This document shows positions 39,931 through 47,316 of a stretch of 64,000 nt of DNA, piece by piece. The position numbers were made by a program, and so were the translations under genes. The stretch is taken from assembly GCF_018860365.1 (NCBI RefSeq), contig NZ_JAHKPO010000014.1, forward strand, positions 1 to 64,000, in the 5' to 3' direction. Below the pieces are notes generated by a model. That model had not been told where the DNA came from. It saw nothing but the letters and a program-made list of their open reading frames with translations, and did not search any database. This stretch comes from Arenibacter algicola (GTDB taxonomy: Bacteria > Bacteroidota > Bacteroidia > Flavobacteriales > Flavobacteriaceae). Numbering within the stretch: position 1 is the stretch's first letter; each line of letters begins with the position of its first letter.

Positions 39931-41247
39931 TTAATTACTTCTAGAACTTCTTCCTCTTGTGGAAGCCGTTGAAACTTTTCTTGCACTGCTGGAAGATGAC
40001 TTTGTCACCGACCTTTTTACAGTACTTTTCGACTGTACATTTGGTCGTTTTACAGTAGTATTCCTTACAGATGAACCGCTATTGCTTCTACTTGAAGAAC
40101 TTCTACTTATCGAAGTATTTCTAGGGCTTCTGTTAACTTCCTTTTTTACCACTGTTCTGGTATTTCCGGAAGGTCTGGATACAACTGCTTTGCTCCTTGT
40201 TACAGAACTTCCATTGCCATTACTACTCCTTGTATTGGTTGTTCTACTTACGGTTCTTTGAACATTGCCCTTATTATTTGGGCGGATCGAAGAACTTCTG
40301 GAAACTGATCTGTCATTTCTAGAACTTGGTGTACTGCTTCTTACAGTAGTACTTCTCTTTACCGTACCGTTTCCATTGCTACGTTGAGTGGTAGATCTTG
40401 AAACATTATTGTTTCTGCCACTAACATTGTTGCTTCTGGATGTAGTACTTCTGGAAACAGTGTTATTTTTTCTTAACCCATCATTTCTACTTGCAACGGA
40501 CCTGTTGGATCTTAGGTTACTGTTATTTCTATACCCATTATCCCTAACGGCAACTCGTTTGTCGTTTCTATAAATGGTACTTCTCTTATTATGATGCCCT
40601 TTGTCGTATTTGTAATGGTGACCTATTTTAGCATATGCTTTTCTGTGGTTGTGATGATATGGCCTATAGTAGGTATATCTTACAGGTTGGTAATACCTTC
40701 TGTAAGGGCTACCAAATACTAGACTAAAGCCTAAGGCCGGTCTTACGAAAAAGCTGTGGAAAGGGCTATACACATAATGCCTGTTATAGACATTAATGAA
40801 CCCCCTGTGGTGGCTGTAAAGCCCACGGTTGTTGTAGTACACATAAAGACCACCAACTCTGGATACCCTGCCACTATTATAGTTGATATCTACCTCCCCA
40901 ATTTGGGTTACCCTACCGTAGTAATCATAGTATATGGGAACATTCTCAACCTGTATAACTGCACCGTAATCGTCATACTGTACATAAGGGTTGTAATCGT
41001 AACCTGAATTGAAAGTAATATTGGTATGTCCAAAATTTACATTAGCATTCACGCCACCTCTATTGTCAATATAGAAATCGAACTCCCCATCAGGATAAAC
41101 TGAAAATGTAATGCCATTTTCAACAAAAATAAATGAGTTGTTGTTTCTATAAGAATTGCTTGTGGCAACCTTATCTTCCACTGAAGCTGCCTTGGAACCC
41201 GAAGTACCTAATATAAGCGCTGTAAAAAGGAGTATTAAATTTCTCAT
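39931..41247 (-). CDS. Secreted Tyr-rich/Arg-Ser-rich basic protein, unknown function
   Basis: The ATG at 41247 (MRNLILLFTALILG) gives a clear signal peptide in a 438-residue protein; the ATG at 41274 adds nine residues before it. The first part of the mature protein (about 35-165) is a beta-rich region dominated by Tyr, Asn and Gly with short repeated units (YPDGEFDFYIDNRGG, YYDYYGRVTQIGEVDINYN). A His/Tyr-rich stretch follows (YYRPYHHNHRKAYAKIGHHY), then about 220 residues of low-complexity Arg/Ser/Thr/Asn sequence with repeated RSTT, RSNN and SRSSS patterns. No catalytic motif is visible. The tail is strongly positive and could bind DNA, RNA or anionic glycans outside the cell; that is a guess. 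Confidence 0.7.
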   Translation of the reverse strand: MRNLILLFTALILGTSGSKAASVEDKVATSNSYRNNNSFIFVENGITFSVYPDGEFDFYIDNRGGVNANVNFGHTNITFNSGYDYNPYVQYDDYGAVIQVENVPIYYDYYGRVTQIGEVDINYNSGRVSRVGGLYVYYNNRGLYSHHRGFINVYNRHYVYSPFHSFFVRPALGFSLVFGSPYRRYYQPVRYTYYRPYHHNHRKAYAKIGHHYKYDKGHHNKRSTIYRNDKRVAVRDNGYRNNSNLRSNRSVASRNDGLRKNNTVSRSTTSRSNNVSGRNNNVSRSTTQRSNGNGTVKRSTTVRSSTPSSRNDRSVSRSSSIRPNNKGNVQRTVSRTTNTRSSNGNGSSVTRSKAVVSRPSGNTRTVVKKEVNRSPRNTSISRSSSSRSNSGSSVRNTTVKRPNVQSKSTVKRSVTKSSSSSARKVSTASTRGRSSRSN

Positions 41248-41412
41248 GATATAAGGTTTTAATTTTGAATGCAACTATTTACATTCAATTTGTATATACC
41301 AAACAGCATGCCAAAAAATCAATTAATAATTTAATATATTGATTTTTAGATGTTTATAATTTATTTGTTTATAACCTTGTGAAGGAAATAGGTTGAAGGA
41401 AAAATAAACCGG

Positions 41413-41484: not shown

Positions 41485-44268
41485 CTAATTGGGCAGTTTT
41501 TCTTTTAAATACTTTGCCGTGTAGGAAGCTTTGTTCTTTGCAACAATTTCAGGGGTTCCCTGCGCCAATAGTTGTCCTCCCTTATTTCCTCCGTCCGGGC
41601 CTAGGTCTATGATGTAATCGGCACATTTTATCAAGTCTATGTTGTGCTCTATTACAATTATGGAATGTCCTTTGCCGATCAATGCATCAAACGATTTAAG
41701 CAATTTTTTAATATCGTGGAAATGGAGACCTGTTGTGGGCTCGTCAAAAATAAATAGGGCTTTGTCCTTGGTGTTCCCTTTTACTAGAAATGAGGCCAGC
41801 TTAATACGCTGCGCTTCCCCTCCTGAAAGGGTGGAGGAAGATTGTCCCAAGGTGACATATCCCAGCCCAACATCTTGAAGTGGCTTTAGCTTGGTTACAA
41901 TTTTGGATTGATTGTTTTTGTCAAAGAAATCTACGGCATCATCAATGGTCATATTAAGGACATCATCTATATTGGCGTCTTCAAATTTCACTTCCAAAAC
42001 TTCTTTTTTGAACCTTTTTCCGTTGCAGGTTTCGCATTCCAAATGCACATCGGCCATGAATTGCATTTCTACGGTAATCTCTCCTTCGCCTTTACATTTT
42101 TCACACCTGCCACCGTCAACATTAAAAGAAAAATGTTTGGGCTGATACCCTCTTAATTTGCTTAATTTCTGGTTGGCAAAAAGATTACGGATATCGTCAT
42201 AAGCCTTAATGTAGGTTACGGGGTTGGATCTGGAAGAACGACCAATTGGGTTTTGATCAACGTATTCTACGTGCTTTAAGGATTGAAATTTACCTTCCAT
42301 GGAACTGTATTGCCCGGCTTTCTCACCGTAGCCTCCAAGTTCCTTTAGAACTATAGGATATAGAAGCTTTTTTACCAAAGTACTTTTTCCACTTCCCGAT
42401 ACTCCGGTAATGACTGTTAAGACGTTTAAAGGAAAGGTAACATCAATATTTTTAAGGTTATTTTCCCGAGCTCCCTTTATTTCTATGTAATTTTTGAAAG
42501 GTCTTCTTGTTTTTGGTACTGCAATTTCCATTTTACCGTTAAGGTAAGCCGCCGTAAGGGAATTGGATTTAAGAATTTCATCCATGGTGCCATGGGCAAC
42601 CACCTCTCCGCCATGCGTGCCCGCCTCCGGGCCAATATCGATAACCTCATCTGCAGCCTTCATAATGTCTTCATCATGTTCCACTACAATTACGGTATTG
42701 CCCAAGTCCCGCAACGATTTTAGTACGGTTATTAGATTCTCGGTATCTTTTGGGTGAAGGCCAATACTGGGTTCGTCCAATATGTACATTGAGCCTACCA
42801 AGCTGCTTCCCAATGAAGTTGCCAAATTTATTCGTTGACTTTCCCCACCGGACAAGGAATTGGATTTTCTGTTCAACGTTAAATAACTAAGTCCTACATT
42901 ATTAAGAAACCCCAATCTACTTTCTATTTCCCTAAGTAATCTGTTGGCAATTTTCTCTTCGTTATAATTAAGTTTAATGTGGTTAAAGAAGCCGATAAGA
43001 TCTTCTATTGGGAATTCCACAAGGTCGGAAATAGATTTCCCCGAAACTTTTACATAGTCGGTTTCCTTCCTTAAACGCCTTCCCTTACAAGTACTGCATT
43101 TGGTTTTGCCCCGATATCGGGATAGCATTACCCGATTCTGTATTTTATAGCTTTTTTCTTCTAGGCCTTCAAAGAATTTATGGATACCGGTAAAATAGCT
43201 GTTTCCTTCCCAAACTAGTTGCTTTTGCTCATCGGATAGCTGATACCAAGGTTTATGGATAGGGAAATCGAATTTATAAGCTACATTCACCAATTCATCC
43301 CTGTACCATCCCATACTTTCCCCTCGCCAAGGAAAAATTGCGTTTTCATAAACCGAGAGTGAGGTGTTGGGAATAACCAGGTCTTCATCTATTCCTATAA
43401 CATCCCCATAGCCCTCACATTTGGGACATGCCCCATAAGGGTTGTTGAAACTGAACAAATGAACATTGGGTTCTAGGAATTGCATTCCGTCCAATTCAAA
43501 TTTATTGCTAAAATGGGTATTTTGGCCAGTTGCCAGGTCCTGAACAATACATTCGCCCTTTCCTTCAAAAAAGGCCGTATCTATGGCATTGCCCAATCTA
43601 TTGAAGAAGTCCTCGTCGTTTTTATATATAATTCGGTCTACCACCAGTTCAAATTCCCGGCCTATATCCTTTAGGTCCTCATCTATCCTAGTAACCTCTC
43701 CATTGTACAATATTCTTGCAAATCCCTGCTTGGAAAATAATTGGAGCGATTTATAGGGGTCTCTATCGGCACTTATTTTAATAGGGGCAAGCAAAAGTAA
43801 TTTTGTGCCTTCTTCAAAGGTTTTAATATGCTCAACTACGTCCGAAACAGTATGTTTTTTAACCTCATTGCCCGAAATTGGGGAAAAAGTTTTCCCAATA
43901 CGCGCGAACATTAACTTTAAATAGTCATAGATTTCAGTAGTGGTTCCCACGGTAGATCTAGGATTGGTAGAATTTACCTTTTGTTCAATGGCAATGGCCG
44001 GAGCTATACCTTTAATATAATCCACTTTGGGCTTGTCCAACTTTCCTAAAAACTGCCTGGCATAGGAGGAGAGACTTTCAACATATCTTCTTTGTCCTTC
44101 GGCATAAAGGGTGTCAAAGGCCAAACTTGATTTTCCCGAACCGGACAGCCCCGTAATGACCACTAGTTTATTACGTGGTATTACAACGTCGATATTCTTT
44201 AAATTATGGAGCTTTGCCCCTTTAATTATAATATTATGCTTGGGATTAACGTCTGTTATAGTGGTCAT
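41485..44268 (-). CDS. uvrA: UvrABC excinuclease subunit A
   Basis: UvrA is the DNA damage sensor of nucleotide excision repair. The 927-residue protein has two ABC ATPase modules, each with a Walker A (GLSGSGKSS near residue 41, GVSGSGKST) and a signature motif ([16 protein letters not shown]). Zinc-binding cysteine pairs are present ([29 protein letters not shown] with CETCNGKRF). Length is close to the E. coli protein (940). A -7-like TATCTTTG on the minus strand (44293-44286) lies 17 bases upstream. It is monocistronic; uvrB is not in the window. Confidence 0.97.
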
Positions 44269-44424
44269 GCTCGTATTTAAGTTTGCAAAGATACGATATG
44301 TGAGTTTTATTAGCTAGTAGCCTTTGTCTTACAACTAAATTATATTCATTGAAGGAAAGTAGTAAGATTCGATTTAATTTTTTTTATATTTGATGCATAA
44401 TAAACCCTAAATAGCCTATACGTA

Positions 44425-44510
44425 ACAAAATTACTTTTTTAAAATTTTGCTCAAAATGCACTTGTAACACAAAACAGGTCTGGCATTTTAGCCTCAAAAA
44501 AGTAATTTGT
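44425..44510. repeat. Nested inverted repeat before the first sigma factor gene
   Basis: Outer arms ACAAAATTACTTTTTT (44425-44440) and AAAAAAGTAATTTGT (44496-44510) pair with a single bulged base. Inner arms AAAATGC (44453-44459) and GCATTTT (44483-44489) pair within the loop. The right outer arm ends at the base before the sigma ATG, so a folded RNA would hide the translation start region. It may be an RNA control element or overlapping operator. Confidence 0.7.
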
Positions 44511-45092
44511 ATGGAACTATTAATAGAAGATTCAGTACTAGTAAAAGACTACATGAACGGGGACGAAAGAGCCCTGGAAAAACTAATTGACCGCCACAAC
44601 CAGCGACTTAGCAGTTTTATTTATTCCAAAGTACAAGATCGGGAAATTACAGAAGATATTTTTCAAGATACCTTTATAAAGGTTATAAGAACCCTAAAGA
44701 AGGGTAATTATAATGAAGAAGGAAAATTTCTGCCTTGGGTAATGCGTATTTCGCATAATCTAATAATCGATTATTTTAGGAAGAATAAACGAATGCCCAG
44801 ATTTGAAGGCAGCAATGATTTTAATATCTTCTCCATAATTAGCGATGATCAGTTAAATGCTGAAAGGAGACTTATTAAGGACCAGATAGATCAGGATCTG
44901 ACACTTCTTATCAAGGAATTACCGAAAGACCAGATGGAAGTTCTGGAAATGCGCTTATATAAGGATATGAGCTTTAAGGAAATATCTGAAAATACAGGGG
45001 TTAGTATTAACACAGCCTTGGGCAGAATGCGCTATGCACTTATCAACCTTCGGAAGATTGTAGAAAAGAACAACATTATTTTAACGAATTAA
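44511..45092 (+). CDS. ECF-like RNA polymerase sigma factor, copy 1
   Basis: A 193-residue sigma-70 family protein with only regions 2 and 4. Region 2 has LIDRHNQRLSSFIYSKV, ITEDIFQDTFIKVIRTL and WVMRISHNLIIDYFRKNKR; region 4 has LPKDQMEVLEMRLYKDMS and the helix-turn-helix FKEISENTGVSINTALGRMR. It is about 80% identical by eye to copy 2 and has the same length. No transmembrane anti-sigma gene of the FecR or RseA type is next to it; instead a 50-residue microprotein gene follows after 71 bases. A -7-like TATATTTG is at 44385-44392. Confidence 0.93.
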   Translation: MELLIEDSVLVKDYMNGDERALEKLIDRHNQRLSSFIYSKVQDREITEDIFQDTFIKVIRTLKKGNYNEEGKFLPWVMRISHNLIIDYFRKNKRMPRFEGSNDFNIFSIISDDQLNAERRLIKDQIDQDLTLLIKELPKDQMEVLEMRLYKDMSFKEISENTGVSINTALGRMRYALINLRKIVEKNNIILTN

Positions 45093-45125
45093 TAGGCCTT
45101 ACAACCGCTTTTGGTTAATTTCTTC

Positions 45126-45152
45126 ATAACACTTGCGTTATTTGACAATAAC
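45126..45152 (+). promoter_or_regulatory. ATAAC/GTTAT repeated element before microprotein 1
   Basis: ATAAC (45126), GTTAT (45137) and ATAAC (45148) begin exactly 11 bases apart, alternating in orientation. GTTAT and the following ATAAC can form a 5-bp hairpin with a 6-base loop, 11 bases before the microprotein start. The same GTTAT/ATAAC pair with the same spacing precedes microprotein 2. Confidence 0.55.
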
Positions 45153-45163
45153 AATATATTATT

Positions 45164-45316
45164 ATGGGGAAATTCAACGTTACTACTAAGAACAATTGTA
45201 AACTAATGTCTACACGTAGGTCCAAAATAGATTTTTTGTTGAATTACTCTAAATCACTTTATATCATTAAATGCGATAAGTGTAAGGATGAATTGGATGA
45301 GCATTGCTTAAACTAG
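45164..45316 (+). CDS. Sigma-linked microprotein, copy 1 (50 residues)
   Basis: A 50-residue protein from the ATG at 45164. Its middle (NNCKLMSTRRSKIDFLLNYS, then KSLYI) matches microprotein 2 (CKL, then IKFLIGYSKSLQI), and both end in LN. It has four cysteines, three of them near the C-terminus (CDKCKDELDEHC), not shared with copy 2. There is no signal peptide or membrane helix. Synteny with a paralogous sigma gene and conservation at the protein level argue that it is real. It could act as a small anti-sigma or co-regulator; no family is recognised and this is inference. Confidence 0.75.
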   Translation: MGKFNVTTKNNCKLMSTRRSKIDFLLNYSKSLYIIKCDKCKDELDEHCLN

Positions 45317-45350
45317 AGGCTTACAACAGTTTTATCAATAGTATGTGCTT

Positions 45351-45390
45351 ACCCATGTATTTAAGTAATGGTTTACTTAAATACATGGGT
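45351..45390. terminator. Perfect 18-bp stem hairpin after microprotein 1
   Basis: ACCCATGTATTTAAGTAA and its exact complement flank a 4-base loop (TGGT). It begins 34 bases after the microprotein stop. It lacks a strong T run (AATTAGTTTT follows), so it may end or protect the transcript rather than be a classic terminator. Confidence 0.6.
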
Positions 45391-45837
45391 AATTAGTTTT
45401 AAAAAGCTATACCTTAATAAGTATACTCCCAGGATTTCATTTCACAATGTAATACCCTGCCCATTAATTTTATAACCAGGGTATCCTTATAGTAGGACCA
45501 TTAGAATAAACTGTACGTGTTTTCTTTATTCATTAATATATAGGTTATTCTATCTTTCCAGCAGCTGATAATAATAAATAGTCTTACCAATAATTCCTTT
45601 AGGCCCTTTCAACTTCATTTTTGACCAATTATTATGCGTAAAATAAGAAAATTGGCATTTGACATCAATTAACGGGGGTTTTACAACATAGTTTTTTGCA
45701 CACCTTACCATTTATATACTTTTATCCTGTTGCTAATTAATAATGAAGATTTAAAGTCTTCAAAAAAAAGAAGTAATAAAAAAAAAGTCCGAACCGAAAG
45801 GGGAGGCCCCCTAGTTTAACCAAAAACAATATTTTGT
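45391..45837. other. Intergenic region upstream of the second sigma factor
   Basis: No convincing gene is seen in this gap of about 450 bases. It holds small hairpins GAAGA-N7-TCTTC (near 45745) and AGGGG-AGGC-CCCCT (near 45800), the latter shortly before the sigma start. It is long enough for a promoter and leader; the large inverted repeat found before copy 1 is not repeated here. Confidence 0.6.
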
Positions 45838-46419
45838 ATGGAACTGCAAATAGATGACTCAGTATTAGTAAAGGATTACATTAACGGTAATGAAAAAGCT
45901 TTAGAGGTTTTGATCAACAGGCACAACCAACGTATTAGTAGCTTTATTTATTCTAAGGTATTGGACCGGGATGTTTCAGAGGACATTTTTCAGGATACCT
46001 TTATTAAAGTGATTAAAACCTTAAAAAAGGGAAATTATAGCGAGGAAGGTAAGTTTTTGCCTTGGGTAATGAGAATAGCCCACAACTTGGTAATTGATCA
46101 CTTTAGAAGAAACAAAAGAATGCCAATGTTTGAAGGGAATGATGATTTCAATATCTTTTCCGTAATTGGTGATGATAAACTTAATGTAGAAAAACAACTT
46201 ATCAAGGATCAAATAGATTCTGATCTTACATTATTAATAGAAGAATTACCGGACGATCAAAAAGAAGTTCTTTTAATGCGTATTTACAGAGACATGAGCT
46301 TTAAGGAAATCTCTGAAAACACTGGGGTTAGTATCAATACGGCCTTGGGAAGAATGAGATACGCACTTATAAACCTTAGAAAAATTATTGAAAAACATAA
46401 TATCGTTTTAACGAATTAA
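45838..46419 (+). CDS. ECF-like RNA polymerase sigma factor, copy 2
   Basis: A 193-residue paralogue of the upstream sigma factor. Region 2 (VSEDIFQDTFIKVIKTLKKG, WVMRIAHNLVIDHFRRNKR) and region 4 (LPDDQKEVLLMRIYRDMS, FKEISENTGVSINTALGRMR) are both complete, and the recognition helix is identical to copy 1, so both probably read the same promoters. Differences cluster in the linker and in surface positions (for example EGNDDF against EGSNDF). It is followed after 72 bases by microprotein 2, the same order and spacing as copy 1. Confidence 0.93.
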   Translation: MELQIDDSVLVKDYINGNEKALEVLINRHNQRISSFIYSKVLDRDVSEDIFQDTFIKVIKTLKKGNYSEEGKFLPWVMRIAHNLVIDHFRRNKRMPMFEGNDDFNIFSVIGDDKLNVEKQLIKDQIDSDLTLLIEELPDDQKEVLLMRIYRDMSFKEISENTGVSINTALGRMRYALINLRKIIEKHNIVLTN

Positions 46420-46461
46420 TAGGTCATAGGACGAACCGGACAATATTTCCATTTTAGTAGC

Positions 46462-46477
46462 GTTATCTTATCATAAC
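46462..46477 (+). promoter_or_regulatory. GTTAT/ATAAC element before microprotein 2
   Basis: GTTAT (46462-46466), a 6-base spacer and ATAAC (46473-46477) repeat the arrangement seen before microprotein 1, 14 bases before the ATG. Conservation between otherwise diverged spacers suggests function. Confidence 0.5.
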
Positions 46478-46491
46478 AATACTATAATCTT

Positions 46492-46635
46492 ATGGAAAAA
46501 ATTTACTCTGAGAATCAACACAAGTGTAAACTTGCCAAAGCGAGTCCTGAAACTATAAAGTTTTTGATTGGCTATTCCAAATCTTTGCAAATAGTTGAAT
46601 ATAGTAATATTCAATTCGAAAATAATTTAAACTAG
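46492..46635 (+). CDS. Sigma-linked microprotein, copy 2 (47 residues)
   Basis: A 47-residue protein from the ATG at 46492 with the core CKLAKASPETIKFLIGYSKS, then LQIVEY, paralogous to microprotein 1, and the same ending LN. It has one cysteine, shared with copy 1. The PETIKFLIGYSKSL helix looks amphipathic. The stop codon is 3 bases before a strong terminator, so the sigma-microprotein pair forms one closed transcription unit. Function unknown. Confidence 0.78.
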   Translation: MEKIYSENQHKCKLAKASPETIKFLIGYSKSLQIVEYSNIQFENNLN

Positions 46636-46638
46636 ACT

Positions 46639-46669
46639 AAAAAATCCCAACTCCTAGTTGGGATTTTTT
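46639..46669. terminator. Bidirectional terminator between microprotein 2 and nth
   Basis: AAAAAATCCCAACT and AGTTGGGATTTTTT pair around a 3-base loop. The right arm also encodes the last residues of nth (KNPN) and the nth stop codon begins in the loop, so the hairpin is shared by coding and terminator functions. Confidence 0.92.
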
Positions 46670-47316
46670 GTTTTGTAGTAGGCATCCAAAACCTTTTTTC
46701 TTCCTATTGTTTTGGTTATTATGTCTTTTTCCAAATTCCACCCTCTCGCAGGGGAATATTCCCTTCCGTACCAAATTATCTGTAAATGAAGATCGTTCCA
46801 TAACTCTTTTGGGAATAATCTTTTCGCGTCTCTTTCTGTTTGTACCACATTTTTACCATTGGAAAACCCCCATCTGTACATGAGTCTATGTATATGGGTA
46901 TCCACGGGAAAAGCCGGTATGCCAAATGCTTGGGAAACCACTACGCTCGCAGTTTTGTGTCCAACTGCCGGGAATTGTTCCAATAATTCGATATCTTGAG
47001 GAACTTGTCCGTCATATTTTTCAATCAGGATTTTAGAAAGCCCATAAATTCCTTTGGATTTCATGGGTGATAGTCCAACCGGTTTAATAATTTCCCTTAT
47101 TTCATCTGCCGTCATTTTTACCATATCGTATGGATTGTCTGCCTTGGCAAATAGTATCGGAGTTATCTGATTGACCCTAACATCGGTACTTTGTGCGGAC
47201 AATAATACTGCAATCAGCAGGGTGTAAGGGTCTTTGTGGTCTAGAGGAACTGGAATGGTGGGATATATTGTTTGTAAAGTTTCAATGGTAAAGTTTACTT
47301 TTTCCGCTTTCGTCAT
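46654..47316 (-). CDS. nth: Endonuclease III homologue without iron-sulfur cysteines
   Basis: Endonuclease III removes oxidised pyrimidines and cuts the abasic strand. The 220-residue protein has the helix-hairpin-helix FPAVGHKTASVVVSQAFG with catalytic Lys121 and the catalytic Asp139 in PVDTHIHRLMYRWG, at nearly the same positions as in E. coli (120 and 138). The usual C-terminal C-x6-C-x2-C-x5-C cluster loop is replaced by GREYSPARGWNLEKDI, and the whole protein has no cysteine. Loss of the cluster is known in some members of the superfamily. It should still be active because catalytic residues are intact. Confidence 0.93.
   Translation of the reverse strand: MTKAEKVNFTIETLQTIYPTIPVPLDHKDPYTLLIAVLLSAQSTDVRVNQITPILFAKADNPYDMVKMTADEIREIIKPVGLSPMKSKGIYGLSKILIEKYDGQVPQDIELLEQFPAVGHKTASVVVSQAFGIPAFPVDTHIHRLMYRWGFSNGKNVVQTERDAKRLFPKELWNDLHLQIIWYGREYSPARGWNLEKDIITKTIGRKKVLDAYYKTKNPN

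Follow-up and report, generated by a model that had tools for sequence, protein, structure and literature searches.

How is an extracytoplasmic function (ECF) sigma factor controlled when no anti-sigma gene lies beside it? One survey found a class I anti-sigma neighbour for only 6% of the ECF sigma genes of Bacteroidetes, compared with 32% overall, and did not decide between broken synteny and a predominance of other control modes (PMC7406223). The question is raised by a locus in a 64,000-nucleotide stretch of Arenibacter algicola DNA (contig NZ_JAHKPO010000014.1, positions 1 to 64,000; the window), in which two ECF sigma factor genes stand in tandem and each is followed by a microprotein gene. 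The initial annotation, made from the letters alone, had proposed that the microproteins are partners or regulators of the sigma factors and that the whole cassette was duplicated. Our computational results pointed to a duplicated module of a sigma factor and an anti-sigma-derived microprotein, with hairpin-gated synthesis and feedback. We put the probability of this reading at roughly 0.5, because the binding, its negative sign, the sigma-dependent promoter and the opening of the leader are inferred.

Linkage and constraint of the microprotein gene

With microprotein 2 as the query and a permissive cut-off (E of 1), 179 of 199 genomes of the host family gave a match, each genus being represented by one genome. 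A panel was made of 80 of the matched genomes, and sigma genes were counted at E 1e-40 or better. The sigma factor was carried by 76 genomes of the panel, with 85 sigma genes in total, and a profile-detected microprotein followed 80 of these genes. Two other sigma genes (L123 and L125) were followed by a diverged frame of 40-45 residues of the microprotein kind. In a set of 80 named loci, which overlaps partly with the panel, the microprotein was found after 104 of 105 sigma genes (exception L275), and one additional match lay elsewhere than after a sigma gene. The gap between the two genes was 37-154 nucleotides (nt), with a median of 71 (157 cases). Neither microprotein matched any family of Pfam or NCBIfam.

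The ratio of non-synonymous to synonymous substitution rates (dN/dS) was pooled within the genus over 18 genomes by a simple counting method. It was 0.119 for microprotein copy 2 (17 distinct sequences), 0.174 for the 47-residue form of copy 1 (9 sequences) and 0.248 for the 50-residue form of copy 1 (7 sequences). The values for sigma 1 and sigma 2 were 0.047 and 0.027. Across 30 diverse sequences, residues of the microprotein were invariant or near-invariant. The initial annotation had staked its claim on conservation of the small frames beside homologous sigma genes and on substitution ratios unlike those of noncoding DNA, and the claim survived both checks. The small frames could still be decaying, functionless relics, as copy 1 was present in 16 of 18 genus genomes (missing in G207 and G211, where sigma 1 was retained) and its constraint was weaker. 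However, dN/dS of 0.12-0.25, near-invariant residues and presence after all but one of the sigma genes of the named loci made decay very improbable. Judged from its sequence, the microprotein is a conserved, real gene under purifying selection, bound to one ECF sigma factor by linkage.

Sigma factors and the tandem duplication

Both sigma factors matched Pfam region 2 and region 4 above cut-off with region 3 unmatched, as in ECF sigma factors, and scored 89.3 and 83.4 bits with TIGR02937 against a cut-off of 42.9. They did not belong to NCBIfam NF009166 (PRK12513), for which they scored 147.3 and 152.7 bits and at least 206 are required. Two sigma factors of equal length, about 80% identical, with an identical recognition helix, had been described, together with paralogous microproteins. 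The alignments agreed: the sigma factors had 193 residues each, of which 156 were identical (81%), and the residues were identical through the region-4 recognition helix. The two microproteins were 35% identical over 43 residues (15/43, BLASTP E 2e-7), and CKL, IxFL, YSKSL and the final LN were present. The 50-residue microprotein 1 had extra cysteines near its end (CDKCKDELDEHC), which were not in copy 2 and represent a possible metal or redox site. Sigma 2 of Arenibacter echinorum was 100% identical to that of the window.

The tandem arrangement was found in 25 of the 80 named loci, and the pair was common to many genera. A first quick tree covered 108 sigma sequences. Of its 22 upstream copies, 20 clustered (support 93), and the remaining two clustered with the downstream copies (support 82). 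Most single-copy loci whose sigma resembles copy 2 were missing from it; a second quick tree, of 101 sequences, combined such loci with the named ones. The tandem rows all fell within a 66-row clade (support 98), which also contained 18 single-copy rows, including Cellulophaga and Flagellimonas, and one change per label sufficed among the tandem rows (support 75). With modest support, the sigma copies appeared to group by position across genera. The simplest reading is that the tandem pairs came from one old duplication, in line with the proposed duplication of the whole cassette; the nested single-copy lineages would either never have duplicated or have lost a copy.

Longer relatives of the microprotein

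Elsewhere in the order and the class, outside the host family, a longer protein stood behind the same sigma factor, and the sizes formed a series graded down to the microprotein. The soluble long forms had 90 residues (L139, L148), 88 residues (L142), 76-78 residues (L150, L151, L153, L155, L159) and 70 residues (L171), and an intermediate form of 49 residues followed the sigma gene at L135. When the class was searched with a long-form profile, 49 of 119 genomes gave a match (E 0.01). We examined 30 long-form loci, and this sigma was directly upstream in 22, with at least 4 of the 30 being sources of the search profile itself. Five of the 30, likewise behind this sigma factor, were of a membrane type, with 193-194 residues (L190, L201, L204) or 173-174 residues (L200, L209). 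They had the tail segment, then a hydrophobic membrane-like helix (by eye), then a further domain. By eye, the architecture was that of a membrane anti-sigma factor.

The microprotein aligned only to the C-terminal part of the long forms, with the final LN shared, at 95% and E 3e-8 with a profile that included the 49-residue row, and at 75% and E 2.6e-5 with a profile that did not. The N-terminal half of the long forms was compared with anti-sigma families, and NF010501 gave E 0.0033 with L142, below its curated cut-off. NF052375 gave E 0.00023 with L190, also below the curated cut-off. In a PDB sequence search with the long-form profile, the top match was geminin at E 0.21 and there was no anti-sigma factor; the microprotein profile had no match at E 10. 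A long-form search of the Arenibacter genome itself gave a best E of 0.064 within a 924-residue frame and no separate anti-sigma half. A class I anti-sigma domain has at least about 50 residues and four helices, and the microprotein of 47-50 residues was not of this kind.

These alignments suggested that the microprotein kept the MxKxYT-like start residues and the tail of the long form and lost its middle. The best reading is of a former anti-sigma factor whose main sigma-binding domain is gone, and the change was presumably from long to short. The retained tail would correspond to anti-sigma helix 4, which contacts sigma region 2 in known complexes (PMC7406223). The statement of the initial annotation that it knew of no described system of this form was amended: the system has a precedent, and the size series linked the microprotein to anti-sigma-like proteins.

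Two further observations concerned the long forms. Their start lay 17-80 nt inside the sigma frame at L150, L151, L153, L155, L159, L200, L203, L205 and L209, which suggested translational coupling. The long forms without the sigma gene (L184, L189, L191, L192, L194, L196, L202, L210) may be orphan partners, and those at L191 and L194 were preceded by similar upstream frames.

Hairpins at the start codons

Towards the sigma start, the order was TATATTTG, GCCTATA, an arm (for example ATTACTTTT) and then the complementary arm immediately before the start codon. By eye, many of the sigma genes had an element of the TATATTTG type upstream, and TAnnTTTG is the housekeeping -7 consensus of Bacteroidota (PMC9723704). 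The sigma-1 leader of the window gave a fold z of -3.1, with the AUG within the helix. Of seven single folds, that of L027 (z +1.8) covered a wrong stretch and was set aside.

We aligned 73 of 80 non-redundant leaders, and L009, L066, L115, L138, L145, L136 and L131 were dropped. In the 12-pair sigma stem, 83.8% of cells were paired, compared with 75.3% when partners were shuffled (0/500) and 34-52% in slid controls. Doubly changed cells numbered 78, compared with 38.9 after shuffling (0/500). Because partner shuffles do not preserve relatedness, a window control was performed on the 5' arm of 45 leaders. At the start-codon window, the arm paired better with its own sequence than with that of other leaders (z 6.8), and six other windows gave -1.5 to 1.6. 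In the 5.7 Mb genome, the sole site reported by a leader model was the sigma-1 leader (E 1.4e-8); the model had scored 150 of 7888 first-look candidates. An Rfam search of positions 44000-47000 and of 10 loci gave nothing near the gathering score at the leaders. The conserved arms and the compensatory change over the start codon were those of a leader that would sequester the start codon. Before sigma 2, where this leader was not detected, a hairpin-like, GC-richer stretch (CCGAAAGGGGAGGCCCCCT) at 45760-45837 was accompanied by AACCAAAAA before the start codon. It was seen by eye in several genera and is possibly a replacement leader for unit 2.

Hairpins were also predicted over the start codons of the microproteins (Table 1). 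The mean stem of the start window was 6.87, compared with 5.92 after shuffling (z 7.6, 84 cases), and a run of 88 cases agreed. Other windows gave z 0.2-2.1, and the adjacent upstream window, which contains the inner hairpin partner, gave 4.4. The anti-start covariation test on the named loci gave 0/500 for all loci, 0/500 for single-copy loci and 1/500 for unit 1. Covariation in unit 2 of the named loci alone was not significant (154/500).

A promoter-like motif and its split from the leader

Most microprotein genes had CAAT-N16-CGTT in the spacer behind the sigma gene. Among 157 distinct spacers, the distance between CAAT and CGTT was 16 in 91 (0.13 expected by shuffling) and 17 in 3. The 17 nt before CGTT could pair with the opening codons of the microprotein gene, and CAAT fell outside the predicted stems. 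This spacing is the geometry of an ECF promoter. In F. psychrophilum, an ECF-type motif whose -10 box is CGT is reported (PMC9723704).

The motif and the sigma leader were distributed differently between the copies. The leader model, trained on other loci, some of them from the same genomes as the named loci, matched 25/25 at unit 1, 46/55 at single-copy loci and 0/25 at unit 2 of the named loci. All 71 matches ended on the ATG of a sigma start. CAAT-N16-CGTT was found in 0/25 at unit 1, 48/54 at single-copy loci and 25/25 at unit 2. In the window, the hairpin of microprotein 1 had CGTTAT at 45136-45141 without CAAT 16 nt upstream. Single-copy loci usually had both elements, and tandem pairs had one each, the leader at copy 1 and the motif at copy 2. 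This split and the covarying start-codon hairpins on both genes were additions to the initial annotation. As a separate observation, AGGTCGA or a near variant stood soon after the sigma stop in unit 1 spacers of most tandem named loci (L211-L251, e.g. L221), most often 27 nt before CGTT.

The motif might not be a sigma-dependent promoter, being instead a part of the RNA leader or the operator of another regulator. The 16-nt stretch is the anti-start arm, GTTAT pairs with ATAAC, unit 1 spacers often retain CGTT without CAAT, and the exact motif had no other plausible genomic targets. However, the preference for 16 over 17 was tighter than a hairpin requires, CAAT lay outside the predicted stems, and an ECF motif with CGT at -10 is reported for F. 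psychrophilum. We consider this explanation a considerable possibility, short of even odds.

The hairpins also raised the question of whether the microprotein autoregulates translation, its target being either the leader RNAs or the ribosome where the two genes meet. Hairpins at both start codons and the gap of 37-154 nt (median 71) would suit such a role, as would the overlap of the long form with the sigma frame at L150, L151, L153, L155 and L159. However, the longer relatives were (weakly) anti-sigma-like and not like RNA binders, and unit 2 kept its microprotein without the sigma leader. Action on RNA or ribosome was judged improbable.

Proposed mechanism

In the reading we prefer, of a sigma/anti-sigma-derived module, the microprotein would bind its own sigma factor via the retained segment, most likely at region 2 in the manner of anti-sigma helix 4, and would weakly restrain it. 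With the membrane anti-sigma factor gone, control would have shifted to synthesis. The sigma leader would hold translation low until it is opened by heat, a trans factor or another signal, and the sigma factor would then activate CAAT-N16-CGTT, as a promoter within the spacer. Because a transcript initiated there would not contain the anti-start arm, the microprotein would be freely translated and feed back negatively. Where the module is in tandem, sigma 1 would be the leader-controlled input and microprotein 2 would carry the feedback promoter. A bolder version posits a class of sigma partners without an anti-sigma domain (ASD), each the post-ASD remnant of a former membrane anti-sigma factor, in a relay of two hairpins. 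The sigma start codon would stay closed until the leader is opened by a signal. The microprotein would be shut on read-through mRNA and free on a sigma-dependent transcript beginning within its hairpin, giving a self-limiting pulse, with input and feedback split in tandems. We hold this version tentatively and regard it as doubtful in its entirety.

Several results weighed against the proposed module. Three of the 85 sigma genes of the panel, the most divergent ones (L130, L131, L132), had no microprotein-like frame behind them, and a sigma of this group was missing from 8 of the 30 long-form loci. The resemblance to anti-sigma factors was weak: a match to an anti-sigma family of NCBIfam was obtained for L142 only among four soluble forms, and only L190 matched an anti-sigma NCBIfam family among the two membrane-type forms tested. 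Pfam gave nothing relevant on the long forms. A fused sigma-microprotein model was of moderate quality (mean predicted local distance difference test, pLDDT, 72.4; predicted template modelling score, pTM, 0.47) and had no reliable interface. In mean-field coupling analysis (227 pairs, effective number of sequences 161), I26 of sigma and L25 of the microprotein formed the top pair. Sigma residues 1-95 accounted for 20 of the 40 strongest inter-protein pairs, about the share expected by length, and region 2 was not enriched.

The RNA elements also gave less favourable results. Sigma-stem pairs with a double change numbered 8, compared with 5.8 after shuffling (15/500) and 5-8 in slid versions, and further pair types numbered 23, compared with 20.5 (45/500). 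Of the covariation measures, these two counts are the least easily inflated by relatedness. On the 73-leader alignment, RNAalifold gave no pairs, perhaps due to long loops and misplaced rows. RCAAT-N16-CGTTAT had 6 matches in the Arenibacter genome, compared with 3 for the reversed control, and the 5 other motif matches lay within reading frames or at their ends, so no regulon was seen.

The sign of action could also be positive. The microprotein would then be a chaperone or co-sigma that stabilises the sigma factor or its binding to core RNA polymerase, the loss of the inhibitory domain having made it a helper. The sigma-occluding domain has been lost, yet linkage and purifying selection persist, and sigma 1 was kept in the two genus genomes that lack microprotein copy 1. 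However, the evidence did not distinguish the sign, and a promoter-like element between the genes fits feedback inhibition at least equally well. We consider a positive partner unlikely.

Comparison with known systems

Systems with a class I anti-sigma domain (ASDI), such as RpoE-RseA, SigW-RsiW and AlgU-MucA, likewise have sigma factors with regions 2 and 4 only and a downstream partner gene. AlgU (6in7), RpoE (1or7) and SigW (5wuq) were among the solved sequence relatives of the sigma factors of the window, and the N-terminal half of the long relatives was weakly anti-sigma-like. In contrast, the partner here has 47-50 residues and lacks the ASD, the Hx3Cx2C zinc signature (by eye) and a membrane segment. 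The rpoH gene of E. coli encodes an alternative sigma factor, and a hairpin in its mRNA, formed over the start codon, gates translation. The gating is alike here, whereas the sigma class and the sequence differ, and there was no Rfam match in the stretches searched.

CnrY, a class II anti-sigma factor, is very short and membrane-anchored; anti-sigma factors of this class wrap a short segment around sigma 2 and sigma 4. It has two binding helices, whereas one helix and a beta-hairpin were predicted for the microprotein in the fused model, and the microprotein had no PDB sequence match. In the fold comparison of that model, all 50 matches listed aligned within residues 1-195. A very short segment of CnrY suffices to hold an ECF sigma factor, and the contact of the last CnrY helix with region 2 resembles that of ASDI helix 4 (PMC7406223). 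Soluble anti-sigma factors can arise by truncation of membrane ones (PMC8103513). The same direction is the simplest reading of the size series, with the difference that here the ASD would have been lost and the tail kept.

The survey cited above set aside anti-sigma domains shorter than 50 residues (PMC7406223). The locus is a concrete candidate for what falls below this cut-off, with a partner of about 47 residues and translational gating of both genes, and the candidate module was found in most sampled genera of one large family. If true, the relay would be one general answer to how Bacteroidota control ECF sigma factors without anti-sigma genes.

Layout of the locus

The gene order was uvrA, sigma 1, microprotein 1, sigma 2, microprotein 2, nth and bcp (Table 1). 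The divergent uvrA lay upstream of the cassette, and the convergent nth, then bcp, lay downstream, all three named by eye from their translations. No FecR- or RseA-like gene was seen by eye among the neighbouring open reading frames (ORFs), as the initial annotation had stated, and the sigma factors therefore did not belong to FecI/FecR pairs. The sizes of the two microproteins and the distances from sigma stop to microprotein start, 71 nt in unit 1 and 72 nt in unit 2, were as first given. A terminator-like hairpin closed each unit, also as described, and five terminator-like sites were predicted on both strands of 44200-46800, compared with 1.4 expected.

Table 1. Coordinates of the features of the cassette in the window.
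Feature	Position	Strand	Evidence
Putative sigma 1 promoter, TATATTTG, matching the Bacteroidota -7 element TAnnTTTG	44385-44392	+	sequence
Sigma-1 leader: GCCTATA, 5' arm ATTACTTTTT, 3' arm AAAAAGTAAT, start codon in predicted helix	44414-44513	+	covariation, fold
ECF sigma factor 1, 193 residues	44511-45092	+	Pfam regions 2 and 4, TIGR02937, above curated cut-offs
Microprotein 1 start-codon hairpin (predicted)	45114-45178	+	arms 45114-45129/45162-45178, inner hairpin 45137-45152; fold z -3.5, covariation
Microprotein 1, 50 residues	45164-45316	+	ORF, BLASTP, dN/dS 0.17-0.25
Terminator-like hairpin, end of unit 1	45349-45392	+	terminator prediction
ECF sigma factor 2, 193 residues	45838-46419	+	Pfam, TIGR02937; sigma leader element not detected
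ACAAT-N16-CGTTAT, ECF-promoter-like, overlapping the anti-start arm, before microprotein 2	46440-46466	+	motif counts
Microprotein 2 start-codon hairpin (predicted)	46446-46498	+	TTTCCAT 46446-46452/ATGGAAA 46492-46498, inner stems 46455-46484; fold z -2.5, covariation over all cases
Microprotein 2, 47 residues	46492-46635	+	ORF, BLASTP, dN/dS 0.119
Terminator-like hairpin, on both strands, between unit 2 and nth	46638-46670	+	terminator prediction

Beside uvrA, a minus-strand protein at 39931-41274 had a long low-complexity tail rich in serine, arginine and asparagine.

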